Below are positions 9,604-26,064 of a DNA stretch of 26,412 bases, piece by piece (position 1 is the first letter of the stretch; each line of letters starts with the position of its first letter). A model generated the notes under the pieces. That model was not told where the DNA came from, did no database searches, and worked only from the letters and a program-made list of their open reading frames with translations. The stretch lies in the IMG/VR virus record IMGVR_UViG_3300022843_000057, positions 1-26,412 of that record. One strand, 5' to 3'. Both the position numbers and the translations under genes were made by a program. Origin of the DNA: a virus.

Positions 9604-9804
9604 ATGTATTCAGAAATTTTAGAATTTGATCCTGCTACTCAAGAATATACAACTAATATGATCTGTATAGATCGTATAGAAAAGACCCCTGATGGTTCTA
9701 TTGAGCTTGCTATGACTATTGATAAGATGAACCATGATAGTCTGAAGCGCAAGGGGTTCTATCGCAAGTTCTTAGAGAACCCTGATAACATTTGGATTGG
9801 ATAA
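9604..9804 (+). CDS. Small protein, unknown function
   Basis: From the ATG at 9604 the product is 66 residues, with a beta-rich front (SEILEFDPATQEYTTNMICI) and an acidic-basic mix ending FRKFLENPDNIWIG-like. A TTG 10 codons upstream is in frame but overlaps gp43. Its TAA shares an A with the ATG of the DNA methyltransferase (TAATG), so it is translationally linked to the modification genes. No domain recognised. Confidence 0.6.
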   Translation: MYSEILEFDPATQEYTTNMICIDRIEKTPDGSIELAMTIDKMNHDSLKRKGFYRKFLENPDNIWIG

Positions 9805-10964
9805 TGAATATGTACACACCCTATAATCTTCAAGACGTATTAGAAGCGTCTAATCAGAATAAGTTTAACGTGATATCAACATTTGCTGGCGGTGGTGGTT
9901 CTTCTACTGGATACCGTCTCGCAGGTGGTAAGATACTATGTGTGAACGAGTTTGTTGAACAGGCTCAACGCACATATGCGGAGAACTACGCCGATACACC
10001 AATTCTACCTGATGACATAAAAAAACTTTCTGGTAAAGATTTCATGTCTATAGCGAATATACAACCAGGCGAACTTGATATCTTTGATGGTTCGCCTCCA
10101 TGTTCTGCTTTCTCTGTATCAGGTAAGTTATCACACACCAAGGATGGTAAACATTCTGACGGTTGGGGCAAGACCAAGAAATACTCTGATGGTATGATGG
10201 TCGAAAATATCGAGGACTTGTTCTTTGAGTTTCTACGCATCGCTAATGAAATTAAACCTAAAGTCATCATCGCAGAAAATGTCAAGGGTTTAACTATTGG
10301 TGAAGCGAAATCATATTTCAATAAAATCCAGAACACATTTGGTGAAATTGGATACGATGTATGTGCTCACGTGTTAGACAGTAGGTATTATGGCGTATCG
10401 CAGACTAGGTCAAGGGTTATCTTCATTGGTGTCAGAGAAGATATCAGCGAAGCGTTGGGACTAAGTATATTAAACATTGGAAACATATTTCCTGATCCAA
10501 CTGCATATACTATCCCCCTTAAAGACGCATTAGTTGGTTTGGTGTATGATCCTGATGAGGTTGAGTTGTTAACCAAGAAGTTTTCTGCAACTGCATATTG
10601 GAAACAGACTGGTTCTCTAATGCCCTTGGACCCACCAAAGGTATTGAGCGGAATGGATTATCATCCAAAGGGGCATCACTTTAACCTAAAGCGAGTTTCG
10701 CAATACGCACCAGCACCAACACTAACCGCTCTTGGTAGTGGTGACGGTACTGCCGGAGCATTCCACTGGAACGAACCTAGGAAACTAACTCTTGGTGAGT
10801 TGAAGCGTATTATGTCATTACCAGATGACTATAAATTAACTGGTACATGGAATCAAAAGGCAGAGCGCATTGGGCGCATGGTTCCTCCGTTAATGATGAA
10901 ATCAGTAGCGAGTTCTGTCTACGAAAGAGTATTAAACCCATATAAGGAATTACATAATGGCTGA
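9804..10964 (+). CDS. DNA (cytosine-C5) methyltransferase, possibly carboxymethylating
   Basis: The 386-residue enzyme has the C5-methyltransferase motifs in order. These are I (STFAGGGGSSTGYRLAGG, SAM binding), IV (GSPPCSAFS with catalytic Cys100), VI (ENVKG, Glu158), VIII (QTRSRVIFIGVR), a target-recognition stretch and a C-terminal motif X (ERIGRMVPP). The chemistry is covalent attack on cytosine C6 and alkyl transfer to C5. In motif X the usual Gly-Asn-(Ala/Ser)-Val is Gly-Arg-Met-Val, so Arg358 replaces the conserved Asn beside the cofactor. The stop overlaps the start of a CmoA homologue by 8 nt. Together these suggest use of carboxy-SAM (inference). I chose ATG 9804 over an upstream TTG because of the TAATG overlap. 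Restriction protection is the conventional alternative. Confidence 0.92.
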   Translation: MNMYTPYNLQDVLEASNQNKFNVISTFAGGGGSSTGYRLAGGKILCVNEFVEQAQRTYAENYADTPILPDDIKKLSGKDFMSIANIQPGELDIFDGSPPCSAFSVSGKLSHTKDGKHSDGWGKTKKYSDGMMVENIEDLFFEFLRIANEIKPKVIIAENVKGLTIGEAKSYFNKIQNTFGEIGYDVCAHVLDSRYYGVSQTRSRVIFIGVREDISEALGLSILNIGNIFPDPTAYTIPLKDALVGLVYDPDEVELLTKKFSATAYWKQTGSLMPLDPPKVLSGMDYHPKGHHFNLKRVSQYAPAPTLTALGSGDGTAGAFHWNEPRKLTLGELKRIMSLPDDYKLTGTWNQKAERIGRMVPPLMMKSVASSVYERVLNPYKELHNG

Positions 10965-11652
10965 TTTTACATTTGCACACCGTGAAGAAGGTTTCGATGA
11001 ACACATTGAAAACTCTATCCGAGGATATAGCAACCTACTAGAAGATGTTATATCTTTGTCTAGATACTTTGTAGAAGACAATACTAATGTTTACGACATT
11101 GGGTGTTCTACTGGTAAGTTGACTGAACGCATGTTGGAATCTAACATGGACTTTTGCAAGAATGCAACCTACATTGGAATCGAGATTGCCGAGGGGTTCT
11201 ATAAAGATATGGATAACCGTAGCACTTCATTGAATGATAAGTTCCCTTGGTCTAATGTTGAGTTCATTAAAGATGATGTACGAGAAGTCGTGCTAGAAAA
11301 TGCTTCTTTGGTTACATCTATCTTTACTTTACAGTTTATGCGACAACAAGACAGGCAGGGAATGGTTCATCGTATTTACGATAGTTTGAACGAAGGTGGT
11401 GCATACATCTTCTCTGAGAAAACCATTTGCGAAAATGCCCGTCATCAGGATATGCTTACTTTCAACTACTATGACTACAAGCGTAAGTCTTTCACCACAG
11501 AAGATATCATGGACAAAGAGCGTACACTACGCCCCATGATGAAACCTAATACATGGAGTGAGATTGAGAACATGTTACACACAGCAGGTTTCCGAGAAAT
11601 ACAACCATTCTGGCGCAACTATATGTTCGTCGGCGCAATTGCTTTAAAATAA
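10957..11652 (+). CDS. cmoA: CmoA-like carboxy-SAM synthase homologue
   Basis: The 231-residue protein aligns along its length with E. coli CmoA (247 residues). It has RGYSN near the N-terminus, DIGCSTG (47-53) for SAM binding, the run ENASLVTSIFTLQF, then LNEGGAYIFSEK, DYKR and a C-terminal AGF...F...AIALK. CmoA converts SAM and prephenate to carboxy-S-adenosyl-methionine, normally for tRNA U34 (cmo5U) synthesis with CmoB. The ATG overlaps the end of the DNA methyltransferase gene (8 nt), so the two are translated together, and no CmoB is seen here. That neighbour suggests the product feeds DNA modification. Helping host tRNA decoding is the alternative, and an ordinary methyltransferase cannot be excluded. 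Confidence 0.82.
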   Translation: MADFTFAHREEGFDEHIENSIRGYSNLLEDVISLSRYFVEDNTNVYDIGCSTGKLTERMLESNMDFCKNATYIGIEIAEGFYKDMDNRSTSLNDKFPWSNVEFIKDDVREVVLENASLVTSIFTLQFMRQQDRQGMVHRIYDSLNEGGAYIFSEKTICENARHQDMLTFNYYDYKRKSFTTEDIMDKERTLRPMMKPNTWSEIENMLHTAGFREIQPFWRNYMFVGAIALK

Positions 11653-11653
11653 T

Positions 11654-12277
11654 ATGTTAGAAACTATTTGTGAAGTAATGGTAGACGCCTATGAGCGTAA
11701 TTGGATCACCAGTCGTGATGGTAATGTAAGTATTCGTCACCACGACCGTGATCACTTTTACATTACTCCTTCGGGTGTTCGCAAGCAGACTCTACAACCC
11801 GATCAGTTCAAGAAGATTGAGATTGTAAGTGGTCTAATGTGGCGTGAAGAATCTTACACTGACATCAGTTCAAATCTAAAACCATCTGGTGAGATTCCTC
11901 TACATTTTGGTCTACAGAAGAATATGGGACAGCACAGCAATGATGTGCGAGTAGTAGTGCATGTACATCCTACATATTGTATCGCCGCTATGCATGCTGG
12001 TATTGACCTAAGCACAATTAGCGATGCGTTTCCAGAGTTGAACCGTTACACCCGAGTTGGTAAAAATGTTGGTGATGTACCACCAATTAGTCAACAACTT
12101 GCTGATGAATGTTTTGAAAGTTTTCAACTTGATAAAGATGGTAATATTGGTTTTGATATTATAGGTATCAAGGGTCACGGTGTTGTTGCGGTGGATACAA
12201 GTCCATGGCGAGCGTATGAACACATCGAACGATTAGAACACATTTGCAAGATTGTACTTGCGTCAGGAAAATATTAA
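11654..12277 (+). CDS. Class II aldolase/adducin-family protein
   Basis: The 207-residue protein has the class II (zinc) aldolase layout: GNVSIR (phosphate-binding loop), TPSGVR, PSGEIPLH with the catalytic-type Glu80, VHVHPTY with zinc ligands His103 and His105, and KGHGVVA with His175. The length is that of fuculose-/ribulose-phosphate aldolases and of MtnB dehydratase (methionine salvage). Substrate cannot be read from sequence. It starts 1 nt after the CmoA-like gene and ends immediately before DoxX, so it may belong to either the modification or the metabolic cassette. A link to SAM recycling (MtnB-like) or to sugar-derived base modifications is speculation. Confidence 0.85.
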   Translation: MLETICEVMVDAYERNWITSRDGNVSIRHHDRDHFYITPSGVRKQTLQPDQFKKIEIVSGLMWREESYTDISSNLKPSGEIPLHFGLQKNMGQHSNDVRVVVHVHPTYCIAAMHAGIDLSTISDAFPELNRYTRVGKNVGDVPPISQQLADECFESFQLDKDGNIGFDIIGIKGHGVVAVDTSPWRAYEHIERLEHICKIVLASGKY

Positions 12278-12739
12278 ATGTTAGTTAATATAAGAAACTA
12301 TTGGAATCTATTACCAGATTTTAGCCTAAGCCATATTCTGCTGCGTATCCCACTAGCGCTGATCTTTATTCAGCAGGGTTTAAGTAAAATGCCGTTCGAT
12401 CCTGCTGGCGGCGAAGCATTTGGGTTACCAGCATTGATATGGTGGGTAGTTGTATTTGGAGAAATTGCCGCTGGCCTAGGACTTTTATTAGGCGCACTAA
12501 CCACACTGCCAGGACTGCGGGACAACTATGTTGTGGCAGTGACTGGCGACTTGATCACACGATTCTGCGGCATCACCATGTGCTGTATTGCAACCGGAGT
12601 GATTTGGGTAGTAATCAGACCTGACGATCTGCTGACATTTGTAATGACCGACTACATGCACTTTTCTTTGTGGTGCGGTGGACTATATTTTGCCTTGCGT
12701 GGCAACTGGGCCGTAGCTACTAGAATTAAATCTGTATAA
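12278..12739 (+). CDS. doxX: DoxX-family membrane protein
   Basis: The 153-residue protein is hydrophobic with about four membrane helices (near 20-35, 52-73, 85-112, 124-142). It has the DoxX signature LLRIPLALIFIQQGLSKM in the first helix and FGEIAAGLGLLLGALTTLPGL in the second. DoxX proteins are inner-membrane proteins linked to redox and thiol-oxidative-stress responses, with no defined reaction. The ATG directly follows the aldolase stop. Its codon choice (more CTG, GCG and GCC) looks different from the replication genes, consistent with later acquisition. DoxX is unusual in a T4-like phage. Confidence 0.82.
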   Translation: MLVNIRNYWNLLPDFSLSHILLRIPLALIFIQQGLSKMPFDPAGGEAFGLPALIWWVVVFGEIAAGLGLLLGALTTLPGLRDNYVVAVTGDLITRFCGITMCCIATGVIWVVIRPDDLLTFVMTDYMHFSLWCGGLYFALRGNWAVATRIKSV

Positions 12740-12759
12740 CAAATACGGATATATACAGT

Positions 12760-12921
12760 ATGACAAAAATAAATCGACAAGAAGACAACAACACAGCGCA
12801 TGAACCTGCAGAAGAAAAAGATGTAACCGAAGCGATAGTGCATATAATGCACATTGCTTTGCCTGTTACCGGCGTTATTTTAATTTTCTTAATGGCATTT
12901 ATTGCTGTGTTCATGGCATAA
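12760..12921 (+). CDS. 53-residue single-pass membrane protein
   Basis: A short frame encodes a 30-residue, charged and probably cytoplasmic N-terminus (many Glu, Asp, Lys, Asn), then the membrane helix ALPVTGVILIFLMAFIAVFM at the C-terminus. The hydrophobic segment is too regular to be chance. The layout resembles small respiratory-complex accessory subunits, but I cannot name a family. It occupies part of the 314-nt space between doxX and erpA. The rest (12922-13053) holds only a 20-codon frame at 12928-12990 and an AAGGC/GCCTT inverted repeat, neither convincing. Confidence 0.6.
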   Translation: MTKINRQEDNNTAHEPAEEKDVTEAIVHIMHIALPVTGVILIFLMAFIAVFMA

Positions 12922-13053
12922 TGTTTGATGATTGAAAAGATTGCAGCATCAAATCTAGCGGACCAATTATTAAGTATAAGTAAAAATTAAAGGCATGTGT
13001 AAAAACGTCGCCTTAACCAACAGAAATACTATTATGCAAAAGACTCTGATCTA

Positions 13054-13383
13054 ATGGACCAATTAACAATAACCGAAGCAGCATTTGTAAAAATACAAGA
13101 TCTTCTTGCTGAAGAAAATAATCCTGAAATTAAACTTAGAACTTTCGTTCAAGGTGGTGGATGCAGTGGGTTCACTTATGGATTTACATTAGATGAAGTG
13201 CAGAATGATGACGACTTCACAATAGAACGCGAGAATGTTACTGTTCTAATTGATGCCATGAGTATGCAATATTTAGTTGGATCGGTCGTCGATTATAAAG
13301 AAGACTTGCATGGCAGCAGCTTCAGTATTTCTAATCCAGGTGCTACAAGTACATGTGGGTGCGGCAGCAGTTTTTCAGTTTAA
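13054..13383 (+). CDS. erpA: ErpA-type A-type Fe-S carrier
   Basis: The 109-residue protein has the A-type carrier fold with three cluster-ligand cysteines: Cys37 in GGGCSGF, and Cys101 and Cys103 in TCGCGSSF. The spacing and C-terminal CGCGSSFS match ErpA more than IscA. It carries Fe-S clusters from the scaffold to apoproteins, for example isoprenoid and respiratory enzymes. It lies just upstream of iscU and iscA, giving a compact Fe-S module. The ribosome site is weak. Such genes are rare auxiliary metabolic genes in marine viruses and usually occur singly. Confidence 0.92.
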
Positions 13384-13400
13384 TATAAGAGGATAACATA

Positions 13401-13784
13401 ATGGCATATTCAGCAGCAGTAGTTGAGCACTACGAAAATCCACGCAATGTGGGAAAGTTCGAAATAGACGAAACCATTGGCACCGGAATGGTTGGCGCCC
13501 CCGCTTGTGGTGATGTGATGAAGTTGCAAATCAAAGTCGTAGACGATGTTATCACTGATGCGCGTTTCAAAACATATGGGTGCGGCAGTGCTATCGCAAG
13601 TTCAAGTTTAATTACCGAAATGGTTAAGGGTATGACCCTTGATCAGGCGGCCGCCATCAAGAACAGTGAACTGGCAGAAGAACTTGCACTCCCTCCAGTT
13701 AAAATTCACTGTAGTATTTTGGCAGAGGATGCTATCAAAGCAGCAGTCGCAGACTACAGATCCAAACATGATAACACTAACTGA
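13401..13784 (+). CDS. iscU: IscU Fe-S cluster scaffold
   Basis: The 127-residue protein (E. coli IscU is 128) has all three scaffold cysteines, Cys36 (APACGD), Cys61 (YGCGSA) and Cys104 ([10 protein letters not shown]), and the conserved Asp38. Residues 97-101 are LPPVK, the motif recognised by the HscA chaperone, so the protein appears able to plug into the host HscA/HscB system. It assembles [2Fe-2S] clusters using sulfur from the cysteine desulfurase IscS, which is not encoded here and would have to come from the host. GAGG precedes the ATG. Its end overlaps iscA by 17 nt. Confidence 0.95.
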
Positions 13785-14091
13785 AGTTGCAGCCAACAAA
13801 GTTAAAAAACAACTAGACAAGCGAGGGTTTGGCTTAGGTATTCGCCTTGGCGTAAAAACTACTGGATGCAGTGGACTAGCATATGTGTTAGAATTTGTTG
13901 ACTCTGTAAATTTCTCCGAAGATACTGAAATTACCTCCAATGGTATCACAGTAGTGATAGATCCAAAATCCTTGGTGTATATGCAGGGACTGGTGGTTGA
14001 TTATGTTCGAAATGGACTCAATGAAGGATTTGAGTTCAGGAATCCCAACGAGCGTGATCGTTGCGGTTGCGGAGAAAGTTTTAGAATATGA
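13768..14091 (+). CDS. iscA: IscA A-type Fe-S carrier
   Basis: Starting at ATG 13768, the product is 107 residues, exactly the length of E. coli IscA, and begins [16 protein letters not shown]. Cluster-ligand cysteines are Cys34 (TGCSGLAY), Cys99 and Cys101 (CGCGESF). A longer in-frame extension to 13639 is an overlap of iscU in another frame and is not credible. It carries iron or Fe-S clusters from IscU to targets. Its TGA overlaps the ATG of a 22-codon frame leading into dadA, so translation is coupled onward. Confidence 0.93.
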
Positions 14092-14156
14092 AGATAGGGT
14101 ACAATAGAAATTTCTGGAATGATCTAGATTTAACACAACAATACAATATAAGATGA
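14088..14156 (+). CDS. Predicted 22-residue coupling peptide between iscA and dadA
   Basis: The frame starts in an ATGA with the iscA stop and ends in an ATGA with the dadA start, filling the 61-nt gap exactly. It encodes a 22-residue peptide ([11 protein letters not shown]... to ...YNIR). It could pass ribosomes from iscA to dadA rather than make a functional peptide. Two consecutive ATGA junctions are suggestive but could be chance in AT-rich sequence. Confidence 0.4.
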
Positions 14157-15337
14157 CAAACAAAAAAGTAGCAGTTGTTGGTGCAGGAATATCTGGTGTA
14201 TGTGCAGCGTATTACCTTGCACGAGCAGGATATCAAGTCACGGTGTATGACGCAGAGCGCTATCCCGCCATGCGAACTAGTTTTGCCAATGGTGGTCAGG
14301 TATCAGTTAGCAATAGCGAAGTTTGGACAACATGGAGTAATGTGTTCAAGGGTATCAAGTGGATGTTTCGCAAGGATGCTCCTTTGCTTATTAAACCCAG
14401 TTTTGAATGGGCTCGTATCAAGTGGATGATCAAGTTCTTATGGACAACTATGCGAGGTAGTGCAGATGCAAACACTGCGGAGACTATCCGCATGGGACTA
14501 GAAGCACGAGCATTGTACAAAGACATCATTGCAGAAGAAGGATTGGAGTTTGATCAATCCAGCAGTGGCATCCTACACTTCTATAAGAATCCAGAATATC
14601 TACAAAACGCACACAATGTAAAAGAACTGTACAACGCAAATGGATGTTCTTGGGATATGCTAGGCGAAATGCAAACCAAATCAATGGATCCTGCACTGGC
14701 ACAAATTAGTGGTATTGTAGGCGGTGCATGGACTGGTGAAGACTGGACTGGTGATATACACAAGTTCTGTACTGAATTATGTAAGGTGTTAGAGACAAAG
14801 TATGGTGTGGAATTTAAATTTAACACTGAGATTAAAGACGGTTATGAACTAGCACTATACGATAAAGTTGTTGTTAGCAATGGCGTTGGTAGTACTGCAC
14901 TTGCTAAACTGATTGGCGATAGCATTGATGTGTATCCAGTTAAGGGATATAGTATTACTATCAACGCCAGTGATGATGATATGAAGTATGTACCAAAGGT
15001 TAGTCTATTAGATGACGAGGCAAAGATTGTTACCAGCACACTGGGAAACCGATTACGTGTTGCGGGTACTGCCGAACTTGCTGGAGAAGACTATGACATT
15101 AGGCGTGATCGCATTGAACCCTTGTTGAATTGGGTACACACTAACTTTCCCAATATCAATACCAGTGACTACACACAATGGGCATGTTTGCGTCCTATGG
15201 CACCAGACATGATGCCTATCATCAAACAAAGCAAGGTTGACAGCAGAGTATTTTACCATACTGGCCACGGTCACTTGGGTTGGACACTAAGTCCTGCAAC
15301 TGCTAAGAAATTAGTGATGATAATATCTGAATCTTAA
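14153..15337 (+). CDS. dadA: D-amino acid dehydrogenase (DadA-like) FAD oxidoreductase
   Basis: The 394-residue protein is a FAD-dependent D-amino acid dehydrogenase of the DadA family. It has the Rossmann FAD motif GAGISG (10-15), SFANGGQVS in the catalytic region and a closing GHGHLGWTLSPATAKKL. DadA oxidatively deaminates D-amino acids such as D-alanine to keto acids plus ammonia, feeding electrons into the respiratory chain at the inner membrane. It is slightly shorter than bacterial enzymes (410-430). It follows the Fe-S genes through coupled frames. In a phage it could release carbon and nitrogen from D-amino acids of the peptidoglycan. That use is inference, and other FAD amine oxidases are the alternative. 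Confidence 0.9.
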   Translation: MTNKKVAVVGAGISGVCAAYYLARAGYQVTVYDAERYPAMRTSFANGGQVSVSNSEVWTTWSNVFKGIKWMFRKDAPLLIKPSFEWARIKWMIKFLWTTMRGSADANTAETIRMGLEARALYKDIIAEEGLEFDQSSSGILHFYKNPEYLQNAHNVKELYNANGCSWDMLGEMQTKSMDPALAQISGIVGGAWTGEDWTGDIHKFCTELCKVLETKYGVEFKFNTEIKDGYELALYDKVVVSNGVGSTALAKLIGDSIDVYPVKGYSITINASDDDMKYVPKVSLLDDEAKIVTSTLGNRLRVAGTAELAGEDYDIRRDRIEPLLNWVHTNFPNINTSDYTQWACLRPMAPDMMPIIKQSKVDSRVFYHTGHGHLGWTLSPATAKKLVMIISES

Positions 15338-16012: not shown

Positions 16013-17350
16013 ATGGTTAGAGTAGTAATAGCACCAACTAAATTTGATGCAGAACATGTGATTGGTCAGTTCATTGACGAATCTCATTACGACGAGGTTA
16101 TCGATGAAGACTGCGATTTCTATGCTCCAACACCATACGGCGAAGATCCGCATGATGAAAGTCGACTGATCTTCAAGTTTCGTAAGAACGCATTCACTTC
16201 TAAAGAATACGTCGATGCATATATCGGATTGGTTGATGCTGCCCAACCACAAACTAATCGTGGTCTTGCTGCTGGCCCTCGTGGTGAAACCGTTGGCGCC
16301 CGTGACTTTGTCAAAGCAGTAGAGTTTGATATTCTCAAGTACTTTATGGAAGACAAGACTTCTGCACTGTATGAAGATGAGATGTCTGATAGTGAACATA
16401 TCAACCGAATTATCCGCAACCATGAATCCGGCGAAAATAAGGAAGACACTCGTGGTGTAGTCTGGCGACGAGGTGGTATTGAAGAAGATGGTCTTGAATA
16501 TGGTAAGTGGTTTAAGCATTGGGTAGAACAGATGTGCGCACTACCAAAGAGCCAACAAGTAGAAAGGGCAAAGGACATCTATGATCGATACATTTCTGAC
16601 ACTTCTTATGCTGCTGCTGTTAACAGCGGTGTTGCTGGTTACTATGATCGTTATCCTAGGTTTCCTTACGGGCGTGTCACTTCTTATAGTTTGGCAAATC
16701 CTAAGTGGACAATGGCATTACCTTACCTCAAGAAACTTAATCAATACTTTAAAGAATTAGTCCCAGGAAAGTACGCTGCTCAAAAACATGTTGCTGATCA
16801 ATTAGACCCCAAGTTCTTGGTAGAGGATACCGTGTTTACTACTATCACGGTTAACAAGAATTTCCGAACCGCAGCGCACCGAGACGCAGGTGATTTGCGC
16901 ACAGGTTTCTCGAACCTCGCGGCACTCACCGGCCCTGATAATAAAGGTTGGACAGGTGCGTATCTTACATTCCCAGAGTTTAGGGTCGCTGTTAATGTAC
17001 GCCCCGGAGATTTGTTATTGGTTAACAACCATGAAGGCATCCATGGAAACTCTGCTATCACTTCCCCCATCGAGGAATCTGACCGTTGTACATTGGTATG
17101 TTACTTCCGTGAGAACATGATGGAACTAGGTTCATGGGAATATGAGCACATCCGTAAAGACTTTGTTGAAGGTCGCAGATTGAATAAAGAACATTCAGAA
17201 TGGCGTGCTGGTTGGAATGGAGTTTCTCCTAGTATGTTCTCGTCTAAAGAATGGTATGGCTATTGTGCTGAACGAGGTGGTGTAGATATGTTGAACAAAT
17301 ATCATCCCAAAGCAAATGAGGTTAAATCATCACTGGAGGAATTTTTCTGA
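16013..17350 (+). CDS. TET/JBP-type 2-oxoglutarate Fe(II) dioxygenase
   Basis: The 445-residue protein has a C-terminal TET/JBP-type dioxygenase domain, about 265-375. The iron ligands are His289 and Asp291 (HRDAGD) and His344 (EGIHGN). Arg358 (DRCTLVCYF) is in the 2-oxoglutarate-binding position, and the intervening GWTGAYLTFPEF and VNVRPGDLLLVNNHE segments are family hallmarks. Phage and eukaryotic relatives oxidise 5-methylcytosine or thymine methyl groups in DNA. The first 260 residues have no named domain and may bind DNA. It is followed 1 nt later by a glycosyltransferase-like gene, the classic phage pairing for glycosylated hydroxymethylcytosine. The C-terminus SSLEEFF resembles the gp43 clamp-binding tail. 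Confidence 0.88.
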   Translation: MVRVVIAPTKFDAEHVIGQFIDESHYDEVIDEDCDFYAPTPYGEDPHDESRLIFKFRKNAFTSKEYVDAYIGLVDAAQPQTNRGLAAGPRGETVGARDFVKAVEFDILKYFMEDKTSALYEDEMSDSEHINRIIRNHESGENKEDTRGVVWRRGGIEEDGLEYGKWFKHWVEQMCALPKSQQVERAKDIYDRYISDTSYAAAVNSGVAGYYDRYPRFPYGRVTSYSLANPKWTMALPYLKKLNQYFKELVPGKYAAQKHVADQLDPKFLVEDTVFTTITVNKNFRTAAHRDAGDLRTGFSNLAALTGPDNKGWTGAYLTFPEFRVAVNVRPGDLLLVNNHEGIHGNSAITSPIEESDRCTLVCYFRENMMELGSWEYEHIRKDFVEGRRLNKEHSEWRAGWNGVSPSMFSSKEWYGYCAERGGVDMLNKYHPKANEVKSSLEEFF

Positions 17351-17351
17351 T

Positions 17352-18158
17352 ATGATTATTACTATTCCTACTCTCATGCGTGAGGATAATCAGAAGTGTT
17401 TTAACAATATGCCACAATGGGTAAAGGATATGACCGTCCTTGCTACTCGTAGTGATCGTGTCGATGAGTTACGGAAACACAACCCATCTGCAACTATCGT
17501 CGATTTAGGTATGACCGAAGGTATTGCGGATGTTCGCCAGCGACTGCTTGATTACGCCAAGGATGAAAAGGTGTTGATCGTTGACGACAGTTGTGTGTTT
17601 ATGCAGCGTGACAGTGAATTGAAACTATCTGAGATCACAGAAGATGGTTGGAAAGACATGTTGCATATGGTTGAAACAATGTTAGATGAGTACCCTTGGG
17701 TTGGTATTAGTGATCGTGGTGGCAACAATCGAGTTCCAGAGGACTTCAAAGAAATTACCCGTTCATACTCTTGTTATGGTATCAATCCCGTCACTATGCG
17801 TGGACATGGAGTTAGGTTTGATGGTATGTATCAAAAGAACAATGAGATCAAACTGTATGAAGATTTCTACGCAACATTGTCTCTATTAACCAAAGGCGTG
17901 AAAAATGCAGTCATCTTTAAGTATGCGTTTAATCATCCTCATGGTAAGCCTGGCGGTAACTCGGTGTTCAGAACCACTGACCTCCAACGAAAGTGCCTTG
18001 AAGCACTCTCAGCAGAATTTCCAGGACTTGTAAAGTTAGTTCGCAAAGAAGATCCTTCTTGGGTTACTGGAGAAGGTGAGAACTTCCGGTGGGAAGCTAT
18101 TATATCATGGTCTGAAGCATATAAGGGCGGTGGTAACTCTTTAGAGGACTTCTTTTAA
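17352..18158 (+). CDS. TET-associated glycosyltransferase-like protein (TAGT type), copy 1
   Basis: The 268-residue protein has a GT-A-like front: a first strand IITIPTLMR, then GIADVRQRLLDYA and LIVDDSCVF with a DD pair at residues 78-79 in the nucleotide-sugar/metal position. A later YEDFYATLSLLTKG holds an acidic pair. The order matches the TET-associated glycosyltransferase group, and it directly follows the TET-like gene. It would add sugar to an oxidised cytosine in DNA (inference). A second, shorter relative is at 25294. The start is ATG 17352 after GGAGGA; an upstream in-frame extension overlaps the TET gene. The tail NSLEDFF closely resembles the polymerase tail. Confidence 0.75.
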   Translation: MIITIPTLMREDNQKCFNNMPQWVKDMTVLATRSDRVDELRKHNPSATIVDLGMTEGIADVRQRLLDYAKDEKVLIVDDSCVFMQRDSELKLSEITEDGWKDMLHMVETMLDEYPWVGISDRGGNNRVPEDFKEITRSYSCYGINPVTMRGHGVRFDGMYQKNNEIKLYEDFYATLSLLTKGVKNAVIFKYAFNHPHGKPGGNSVFRTTDLQRKCLEALSAEFPGLVKLVRKEDPSWVTGEGENFRWEAIISWSEAYKGGGNSLEDFF

Positions 18159-19989: not shown

Positions 19990-20428
19990 TAAATGGCACA
20001 CCCGATATATAAACCTTGCCAAGGAGGTTTCGGGTTGGAGTAAAGACCCTTCTCGTAAAATTGGTGCTGTTATAGTCGGAGAACATGGTCAGATATTATC
20101 ACAGGGTTACAATGGATTCCCTCGTGGAGTGTTTGACTTAACCGAGAGGTACGACGATCGTCCAACGAAATATAAGTATGTTGTCCATGCTGAGATGAAC
20201 GCCATTTACAACGCCACCCTAAATGGTGTAAAATGTCAGGGTGCAGAACTATATGTCTGGGGACTACCCGTTTGTTCTGAATGTGCAAAAGGTATCATCC
20301 AAGTTGGTATCACGCATGTACATATCCCTCAAGCTGCGTTTGGTGTCAATGTGATGTGGGATGAATCATTCGAATTCACTAAATCAATGTTTATAGAAAG
20401 CGGAGTTACCGTTACAATACATGAATAA
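19970..20428 (+). CDS. dCMP deaminase
   Basis: The 152-residue zinc enzyme has HAEMNAI (ligand His73, proton-shuttling Glu75) and PVCSECA (Cys102 and Cys105), the deoxycytidylate deaminase signature, and the conserved GYNGFPRG loop. It converts dCMP to dUMP, the substrate for ThyX, whose gene starts at 26074. I use ATG 19970, which overlaps the previous gene by 20 nt. A few upstream non-ATG starts exist. In T4 this enzyme balances dC and dT supply. Here cytosines are apparently modified at the DNA level, so dCTP need not be excluded. Confidence 0.9.
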   Translation: MHTETDNKWHTRYINLAKEVSGWSKDPSRKIGAVIVGEHGQILSQGYNGFPRGVFDLTERYDDRPTKYKYVVHAEMNAIYNATLNGVKCQGAELYVWGLPVCSECAKGIIQVGITHVHIPQAAFGVNVMWDESFEFTKSMFIESGVTVTIHE

Positions 20429-21959
20429 AATTAACCTTATTATCCCTGCCGCTGGTGCTGCAACAAGACTAAGACCTCTATCTAGCAATACATCAAAGGC
20501 TATGGTTCGCGTCAATGGTAAACCCTGCATCGATTTTATCCTAGAGCAAGCGGGTGAACATGCTGAAGTGTCTGAAGTTATCATAGTAGATGGTACATTT
20601 AACGATATCCGTGAATATGTTAAACGACGCTGGTCGAGCAAGTTGAATATCAAGTTTGTTAAACAAACTTCGTTAGACGGTCCTCTAAATGCAATTAAGA
20701 TAGGTGTAGATTCTATCACTGATATGAGTATTCCTACAGTCGTTTGGCTTGGTGATGCTATTATTCTAGAGGAAGAACTTCCATTAGGTAAAGATTTTTT
20801 ATTGACCAAAGAAGTCACTGATCATAACAACTGGTGTATGTGGAATGTGGTTAACAACACATTTCATGACAAACCCGTTGAAACTGTTCCTACTGCGGTC
20901 GCGTTGGTGGGATTGTATTCATTTTCCGACACTTTACGGTTTATGTCTGCTCTGGTTGATACGGATGGTCAGTATGATATCAGTTCTGCACTGGTTGCGT
21001 ATCAGCGCAAGTATGAACCAATCAGTACTGAAAAATGGTATGATATTGGCGAGATCAGTTCTTACTACAAGACATGTGCGTCATTGTTATCGTTAAAGAG
21101 TCGTTCATTCAATACTATTTCTTATGACTCGGAACTTAATCTTATACATAAACAACCAGATTACCACAACATTGATGCGATACAAACCATTGATAGCGAG
21201 AAGTCTTGGTATAGAGGACTTGATTGGCGTCAAGAGTTGTTTGTTCCTAGGTTTATTGATTCTTCATCATCACTGACATTGTCTTACGAACCAGGATTGT
21301 TGTTGTCAGACTTGTTGATGTATGAGGACATTCCTGCTTCTACTTGGGAATATATCATAGATAAAATTTTCCATATCGTTACTCAGTATTTTCATGCGGG
21401 TAATGAGTCTGCGCAGAATGACCCTATATACACTTTCAGCACAAATTGTAAAAAGATATGGGTTGGTAAAACAGAAGATAGACTACGGGGAACAGTACTG
21501 CCGCATGATATTAAAGATCAACTTATAAGATATGCACATGAGATCTACAAGAACTGCAAGCCGGTGGCATGTATGCTTGGTGATTTACACTTTGGTAATG
21601 TATTATACAATGCTCAGAATGATAAAGTAACATTCATTGATCCTCGTGGTCAATATGGTGATATTGAAGGTGTTATGGGTGATAGTCTGTACGACTGGTC
21701 TAAGCTTGCTCAAGACTTGGTACTTGGATATAATCACTTACTTTCAGATATACCATACACACGCCAAGAAGAACTCACGGGTATATTCAAACGCATGTGT
21801 AAGAAATATGGAGTTGACTATAAACTTGCAGTTAAGGGTGGGGTAGTGTTACTGGCAACATGCATCCCATTGCATAATGATAACCTTGCGCGCCAAAAGC
21901 GTTTTGAAACTAAAGTAGTGGAGTATTTCGATGACAAGTCTTCGTTCCATAGTATTTGA
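20421..21959 (+). CDS. Fused nucleotidyltransferase and APH-like kinase
   Basis: The 512-residue protein is a fusion. The N-terminal half is a sugar/aminoalcohol-phosphate nucleotidyltransferase with the motif AAGAATRLRPLSSNTSKAM (about 9-27), GDAI-like metal site and a KWYDIGE segment near 215. The C-terminal half has a kinase motif of the aminoglycoside/choline kinase type: LGDLHFGNV (386-394) and FIDPRGQYGD (about 407-416). This resembles LicA/LicC-like activation of a small molecule by phosphorylation then nucleotidylation. In this phage it could make an NDP-sugar or CDP-alcohol for the glycosyltransferase-like proteins; surface-glycan decoration is the alternative. It is followed by an overlapping HAD phosphatase gene. 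Confidence 0.8.
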   Translation: MNKINLIIPAAGAATRLRPLSSNTSKAMVRVNGKPCIDFILEQAGEHAEVSEVIIVDGTFNDIREYVKRRWSSKLNIKFVKQTSLDGPLNAIKIGVDSITDMSIPTVVWLGDAIILEEELPLGKDFLLTKEVTDHNNWCMWNVVNNTFHDKPVETVPTAVALVGLYSFSDTLRFMSALVDTDGQYDISSALVAYQRKYEPISTEKWYDIGEISSYYKTCASLLSLKSRSFNTISYDSELNLIHKQPDYHNIDAIQTIDSEKSWYRGLDWRQELFVPRFIDSSSSLTLSYEPGLLLSDLLMYEDIPASTWEYIIDKIFHIVTQYFHAGNESAQNDPIYTFSTNCKKIWVGKTEDRLRGTVLPHDIKDQLIRYAHEIYKNCKPVACMLGDLHFGNVLYNAQNDKVTFIDPRGQYGDIEGVMGDSLYDWSKLAQDLVLGYNHLLSDIPYTRQEELTGIFKRMCKKYGVDYKLAVKGGVVLLATCIPLHNDNLARQKRFETKVVEYFDDKSSFHSI

Positions 21960-22299
21960 TCTAGACGATACCATATGTTTTCCCGACCACACTCAGTCTG
22001 AGACATATGAAAAATACGGTCGTGCTGCGCCTAATATCCCAGTCATCACGGCCATGCAAAAACTAGATGGCGCAGGATATCATATTACTATATTATCCAG
22101 TAGGAGAATGTTGACCCATGATGGAAACCTAGCAAAGATCATTGCCGATGTATCTGAAACCACTGTAGAATGGTTACATAAGCACAAAGTTCCTTACGAT
22201 GAGCTAAAATTCGGAAAACCCTACAGCACAACTTATTATGTCGACGACAAAGCAATGACTCCAGAAATACTTTGCAATAATGTCGATAGTATGTTATAA
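21931..22299 (+). CDS. HAD-family phosphatase
   Basis: The 122-residue protein begins with the HAD nucleophile motif DLDDT (Asp10, Asp12). Motif II SSRR (about 52-55) and a C-terminal FGKPYSTTYYVDDKAM (Lys, acidic pair) follow. Its size and the short linkers match the capsule/polysaccharide-biosynthesis HAD phosphatases. It overlaps the end of the nucleotidyltransferase-kinase gene by 29 nt, so these act in one pathway. Such HADs remove a phosphate from sugar intermediates before nucleotide activation. No cap domain is present. Confidence 0.8.
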   Translation: MTSLRSIVFDLDDTICFPDHTQSETYEKYGRAAPNIPVITAMQKLDGAGYHITILSSRRMLTHDGNLAKIIADVSETTVEWLHKHKVPYDELKFGKPYSTTYYVDDKAMTPEILCNNVDSML

Positions 22300-25091: not shown

Positions 25092-25297
25092 TGACAAGAC
25101 CAATAAGTGAATATTTTTCAGATCCATGTAAGGGTTTGCGCAGGAGTGCTCAAGTTCTAACCTACGGTATGACCGGATATATGGTTAGAATGTTTGAGGA
25201 GGGGCATATCGCTAGAGAGCACCTCATTAACGAGGGACAATCATTAGATTACGCTGAGGATTGTGCTGAAAATTGGGTAACAAGAGTAATTAAATGA
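25091..25297 (+). CDS. Small protein between gp41 and the second glycosyltransferase-like gene
   Basis: The 68-residue product has LRRSAQVLTYGMTGYMVRM and a helical, acidic C-terminal half (DYAEDCAENWVTRVIK). Start and stop are tightly coupled (TAATG with gp41, ATGA with the next gene). No family is recognised. Two Cys and an amphipathic helix suggest a small folded domain. Confidence 0.6.
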   Translation: MTRPISEYFSDPCKGLRRSAQVLTYGMTGYMVRMFEEGHIAREHLINEGQSLDYAEDCAENWVTRVIK

Positions 25298-26064
25298 TAC
25301 CAATTTATATTCCGACAAGAGGTACTGTAACCAAAACATACGATAACCTACCTGATTCAATTAAGAAAAGTGTTATTATGTTCACGGACAACATCGTTGA
25401 CAGTATCCCTCTTGATCAACAATTATTATTTAAAGGGGGCATTGCAAACAAGCGCCAAGCATGTATTGATCATGCTATCAAGACCAACAATGAACATATG
25501 GTACTGGTTGATGATGACGCATTATTATATAAGGTGATTCGTAATGAGGATGGTACACATAAAGCGGCAAAGGAACTTGCTGATGAAGAATCATACAAAA
25601 GTTTCTACGTTGATGCAATTCAACGATTCGTTGACGACGATGCCCTGACAATTATCAGTGATCATTCTCGGGCGTTTATCAATGGTAAAAATGAAACGAA
25701 TAGTAACCTAAACAAATTTTGTATTCACGATCTTGCCAAGGTTAAAAAGAGTGGGTGCGTATATAACCGAATAACTATATTCGAGGATATTGATTTTTAC
25801 CTACAGTTATTCAGAGCAGGTTATTCAGTGCGTAGAACAAAAATTATATCTTCAATCAATGATTCGAGTGATTATGTTGATATGAGTCCAGATAAATACA
25901 CCGCAGTGTTCTTAGATTGGCAAGAGCACTTTCATCACAACGTAAAGATAACATGGGATACAGCCTCTATATTTGCTGGCAATAAAAGAGTTCCAGTTAC
26001 AGTGAATATCAAATGGAAACCTATGGTATATGAAACCGTAGATTTAAATAATTTTTTAGAATAA
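25294..26064 (+). CDS. TET-associated glycosyltransferase-like protein, copy 2
   Basis: The 256-residue protein is a relative of the protein at 17352. It starts with a strand and PTRG, has GIANKRQACIDHA (compare GIADVRQRLLDYA) and a LVDDDALLYK site at Asp73-75, and later FEDIDFYLQLFRAGYS (compare YEDFYATLSLLTKG). The fold is GT-A-like, so it probably transfers a sugar. It may act on the same modified base, adding a second sugar or working in another sequence context. Its C-terminus VDLNNFLE is only a weak version of the clamp-tail motif. It lies next to gp41 and thyX rather than to the TET gene. Confidence 0.7.
   Translation: MIPIYIPTRGTVTKTYDNLPDSIKKSVIMFTDNIVDSIPLDQQLLFKGGIANKRQACIDHAIKTNNEHMVLVDDDALLYKVIRNEDGTHKAAKELADEESYKSFYVDAIQRFVDDDALTIISDHSRAFINGKNETNSNLNKFCIHDLAKVKKSGCVYNRITIFEDIDFYLQLFRAGYSVRRTKIISSINDSSDYVDMSPDKYTAVFLDWQEHFHHNVKITWDTASIFAGNKRVPVTVNIKWKPMVYETVDLNNFLE

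Follow-up and report, generated by a model that had tools for sequence, protein, structure and literature searches.

We are highly confident, judging from gene content and conserved residues, that an overlapping pair of genes in an uncultured T4-like phage forms a CmoA-CmoX system that would make 5-carboxymethylcytosine in the phage's own DNA. The window, that is, the whole stretch of DNA analysed, is the entire IMG/VR record IMGVR_UViG_3300022843_000057 (26,412 bases) and represents a fragment of the phage genome. Three near-identical contigs (G001, G003 and G007; 99.8-99.9% identity) together cover ~60 kb of the same phage. The pair is arranged as follows.

9804..10964, + strand: cmoX-type DNA cytosine-C5 carboxymethyltransferase (predicted), 386 aa; evidence, Pfam PF00145, best PDB match 8YF3 (SpCmoX) and a residue table
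10957..11652, + strand: cmoA, predicted carboxy-SAM synthase, 231 aa; evidence, E. coli CmoA (4gek), identity to SpCmoA and contact residues
10957..10964, + strand: cmoX/cmoA overlap, 8 nt

A natural system of this kind has recently been described in Synechococcus phage S-B43 (PMC12783734, Nat Commun, 7 December 2025), in which CmoA is a carboxy-SAM synthase, CmoX (SpCmoX; structure 8YF3) is a cytosine C5-carboxymethyltransferase that acts at GC sites and uses carboxy-SAM only, and CmoY is a glycine ligase. The survey in that study listed 5,615 CmoX candidates, whose contigs contained 4,257 CmoA proteins and 2,251 ligases (PMC12783734). The original prediction that the window pair makes 5-carboxymethylcytosine is strengthened by the chemistry demonstrated for these close homologues and by the conservation of key residues, but the novelty it implied does not hold. 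Instead, the pair very probably represents a further T4-type phage lineage with the published CmoX-CmoA system. Enzyme activities, GC specificity, structure and HhaI resistance were all shown for the S-B43 homologues (PMC12783734); for the window pair, the analysis establishes the genes, their order, their homology, their catalytic and selectivity residues and an arginine-CmoA association across homologues, whereas activity, sequence specificity and the fate of the carboxymethyl group are inferred.

In the proposed pathway, CmoA would carboxylate SAM, with host prephenate as the donor, to generate carboxy-SAM. Cys100 of CmoX would attack C6 of cytosine, Arg358 would bind the carboxylate of carboxy-SAM, and the carboxymethyl group would be moved onto C5 to yield 5-carboxymethylcytosine. 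The target would probably be GC dinucleotides (the GC dinucleotide ratio of 0.93 in the window is uninformative on GC depletion), and the modification would probably shield phage DNA from host restriction.

The cmoX-cmoA gene pair

Both open reading frames were found where they had been predicted, with an overlap of exactly 8 nt. The cmoX gene runs from an ATG at 9804 to a TGA at 10964, with an alternative in-frame TTG at 9792, and cmoA extends from an ATG at 10957 to 11652. Compared with a relative whose proteins are 77% (methyltransferase) and 74% (CmoA) identical, 221 of 341 and 133 of 219 base changes, respectively, fall at third codon positions. Of 150 related viral loci covered by a search for the same pair in other phages, as the original prediction had proposed, 128 have both genes, adjacent and in X-A order in nearly all, so the pairing is not due to chance.

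The pair resembles the CmoA-CmoX-CmoY system of S-B43, likewise a T4-like phage without CmoB, in that CmoX and CmoA are 58% and 57% identical to their counterparts and share the same arginine, SPPC motif and cofactor residues. The S-B43 genes, however, are ordered A-Y-X and include CmoY, whereas the window genes are ordered X-A, overlap by 8 nt and follow a DNA polymerase gene, with no CmoY found. Synechococcus phage S-CRM01 also has an adjacent, overlapping CmoA-CmoX pair and no CmoY in its complete genome, but there the order is A-X and the pair lies beside regA/clamp-loader genes.

Cofactor residues of CmoX and their association with CmoA

The product of 9804-10964 matches Pfam DNA_methylase (PF00145; 4.1e-52) and the NCBIfam dcm model, as could be expected of an ordinary SAM-dependent 5mC enzyme (a solitary anti-restriction methylase) whose neighbouring CmoA serves another purpose. 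We consider this reading very unlikely. The best match among solved structures is SpCmoX (E 3.3e-147 over 375 residues), followed by ordinary methyltransferases at 9e-23 or worse. The SPPC nucleophile motif occupies residues 97-100 (S95-C98 in SpCmoX), and the SpCmoX residues that contact the adenine and ribose of carboxy-SAM (F25, E47, F48 and D69) are all conserved; in an alignment with HhaI and other phage enzymes, so is every cofactor residue named for SpCmoX in PMC12783734. A CmoA gene in the neighbourhood, a further mark of CmoX, is also present.

Motif X (GRMVPP) contains Arg358, which corresponds to the carboxylate-selecting R350 of SpCmoX, shown to bind the carboxylate (PMC12783734). 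HhaI has Asn at this position; its sequence was typed into the alignment by hand, and the Asn at 350 is stated independently in PMC12783734. Replacement of the motif X Asn by Arg, as in the carboxy-SAM-only SpCmoX, argues against an ordinary 5mC enzyme. The engineered M.MpeI that uses carboxy-SAM, which the original prediction had mentioned, is indeed cited in PMC12783734: this N374K variant also has the motif X Asn replaced by a basic residue, although it is engineered and CG-specific, whereas the window arginine is natural.

All 165 distinct viral relatives have arginine at the Arg358 position. Because such constancy is expected within one family, we turned to a wider set of 88 homologues, comprising 80 loci in bacterial genomes (from a wider alignment) and 8 phage records, and scored each for a CmoA homologue in its locus; three homologues were not classifiable. 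CmoA was present in 27 of 32 Arg-type loci versus 0 of 53 loci of the Asn, Met or Leu type (Fisher exact test, 1.8e-17 over 85 homologues, a value that ignores relatedness). Two of the five Arg-type exceptions come from phages (Erwinia phage Y3, Dickeya phage AD1) whose groups encode CmoA at another genomic location (48 CmoA matches in the Erwinia group and 2 in the Dickeya group). This co-occurrence of Arg with a nearby CmoA likewise argues against an ordinary 5mC enzyme and, as it extends across bacterial genomes and phages, lends independent support to recognizing carboxymethyltransferases by the arginine.

In at least one bacterial locus (L352), a terminase-like gene, judged by eye, adjoins the pair, and given this neighbour the bacterial Arg-type pairs may be prophages. 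Several Verrucomicrobia assemblies (among L361-L363, L367, L371, L373 and L375) contain two or three separate Arg-type CmoX-CmoA pairs, which could be prophage copies or chromosomal systems. In a Staphylococcus phage SPbeta-like record (L202, 3947-5646), CmoA lies immediately upstream of an HhaI-like methyltransferase with the motif X sequence GGVINQL, in which the aligned residue is not Asn or Arg, perhaps reflecting another way of using carboxy-SAM. Methylophilales phage Melnitz-3 (L197, 1-4212) encodes a CmoX relative with Leu replacing the Arg and a RimK-like ATP-grasp gene close by; CmoA was not found in the stretch read, and the enzyme perhaps uses another unusual cofactor or substrate.

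A predicted phage-type carboxy-SAM synthase

In a sequence search of solved structures, window CmoA residues 2-231 aligned with residues 16-242 of E. coli CmoA (4gek; E 9.8e-31), in agreement with the homology along its length noted in the original prediction. Pfam returned general methyltransferase families only. The best NCBIfam model was TIGR00740 (CmoA), at 127.8 bits and thus under the cut-off of 193.3. As the activity-proven SpCmoA scores only 115.6 bits on the same model, this cut-off does not define phage CmoA proteins.

This homology to E. coli CmoA would be compatible with a role for CmoA in tRNA wobble modification (cmo5U34) alongside a host CmoB, with the DNA enzyme unrelated. We regard this as extremely improbable. 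A search for CmoB (PF08003) found none in the near-identical contigs of the phage, which extends the absence reported in the original prediction, and none in the complete genomes of S-CRM01 and S-B43; in the majority of related loci, moreover, CmoA sits immediately beside an Arg-type DNA enzyme. The window system differs from the E. coli CmoA/CmoB pathway in its lack of CmoB, in its partner, a DNA C5-methyltransferase homologue, and in the residue at position 199.

In E. coli CmoA, Arg199 forms a salt bridge with the carboxylate (PMC3663124, PMC4482062). Its equivalent in the window is Glu188, with Arg192 one helical turn later, and this substitution counts against the proposed system, as does the contig being a fragment. 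SpCmoA, S-CRM01 and the viral relatives sampled likewise have Glu at this position, and most such CmoAs of the clade have Arg at the E. coli Glu203 position, one helical turn on. SpCmoA is nevertheless active, with a kcat tenfold above that of the E. coli enzyme (PMC12783734), which indicates that Arg199 is not needed and is an unsuitable criterion for phage CmoA. Product inhibition has been suggested for E. coli CmoA (PMC4482062). We hypothesize that losing the tight Arg199 salt bridge might relieve inhibition of this type, which could explain faster turnover in the majority of phage-type CmoAs.

End product and neighbouring modification genes

Over the ~60 kb covered, the window phage has a ligase-less arrangement, as in the isolate S-CRM01. 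No ligase was found by PF00733 in or near the window, and searches for SpCmoY homologues came up empty in the window, its three near-identical contigs (an incomplete genome), two relatives (G004 and G005) and the S-CRM01 genome, which is complete at 178.6 kb. These absences, and the DNA polymerase rather than a ligase upstream of cmoX, argue against a further possibility, in which 5-carboxymethylcytosine serves only as a handle and is turned into an amide by a ligase that is unseen or non-homologous, in the manner of CmoY in S-B43. Such an end product would refine the main reading and is compatible with it, and we hold it to be a serious possibility, if somewhat short of an even chance. In its favour, of 37 related loci with CmoA and at least 2.5 kb of flank on both sides, 20 have a CmoY homologue, mostly as the gene immediately upstream of cmoX; coverage of the phage stops at ~60 kb; and the modified base in S-B43 virion DNA is exclusively the glycine amide (PMC12783734). 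For the 17 ligase-less loci, we rejected the idea that CmoX has a common alternative neighbour, as the recurring genes there are mainly T4-like core replication genes. The ligase-less arrangement is where bare 5-carboxymethylcytosine or another derivative could be sought.

Further candidate modification genes, and an inserted cassette, lie downstream of the pair.

11654-15337: inserted cassette between CmoA and MazG, absent in the relative G004
16013-17350: TET/JBP-like dioxygenase (PF12851, 1.6e-21)
17316-18158: glycosyltransferase-like (glucosyltransferase-like) gene (PHROG 842), overlapping the TET/JBP gene
20421-21959: 512-aa protein with an N-terminal nucleotidyltransferase domain (PF00483)
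21931-22299: HAD-like phosphatase, following the 512-aa protein
25294-26064: TET-associated glycosyltransferase (PF20691)

The TET-like enzyme might oxidize the side chain of 5-carboxymethylcytosine, with subsequent glycosylation and no amidation, to give an undescribed hypermodified base. The gene order in G004 (DNA polymerase-CmoX-CmoA-MazG-TET/JBP-glycosyltransferase), in which the pair is followed directly by MazG, the dioxygenase and the glycosyltransferase, would fit this scheme, but we think it very improbable, because a close relative retains the TET gene at a locus that lacks CmoX and because same-family TET-like genes occur in Stenotrophomonas phage DLP_6, phage C48C1, Caulobacter phage Cr30 and Synechococcus phage S-CBWM1, whose complete genomes contain no C5-methyltransferase. 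The TET substrate in these four phages is thus not phage-made 5mC; perhaps, as a guess, it is thymine, as in base J. DLP_6 and S-CBWM1 also carry PF20691 genes. Most likely, then, the TET/JBP-glycosyltransferase module is separate from CmoX-CmoA and works on another base. The nucleotidyltransferase and phosphatase genes near it possibly function in sugar activation.

The inserted cassette encodes a class II aldolase, DoxX, an ErpA-like (IscA) protein, IscU, IscA and a D-amino-acid dehydrogenase-like protein. We rejected it as part of the modification pathway, since G004 lacks it between CmoA and MazG and since CmoX in other phages did not have the aldolase as a neighbour. The best NCBIfam model for the aldolase is MtnB, far under its cut-off; near this aldolase in other viral contigs, IscU was present in 20 of 80 loci and IscA in 16 of 80.
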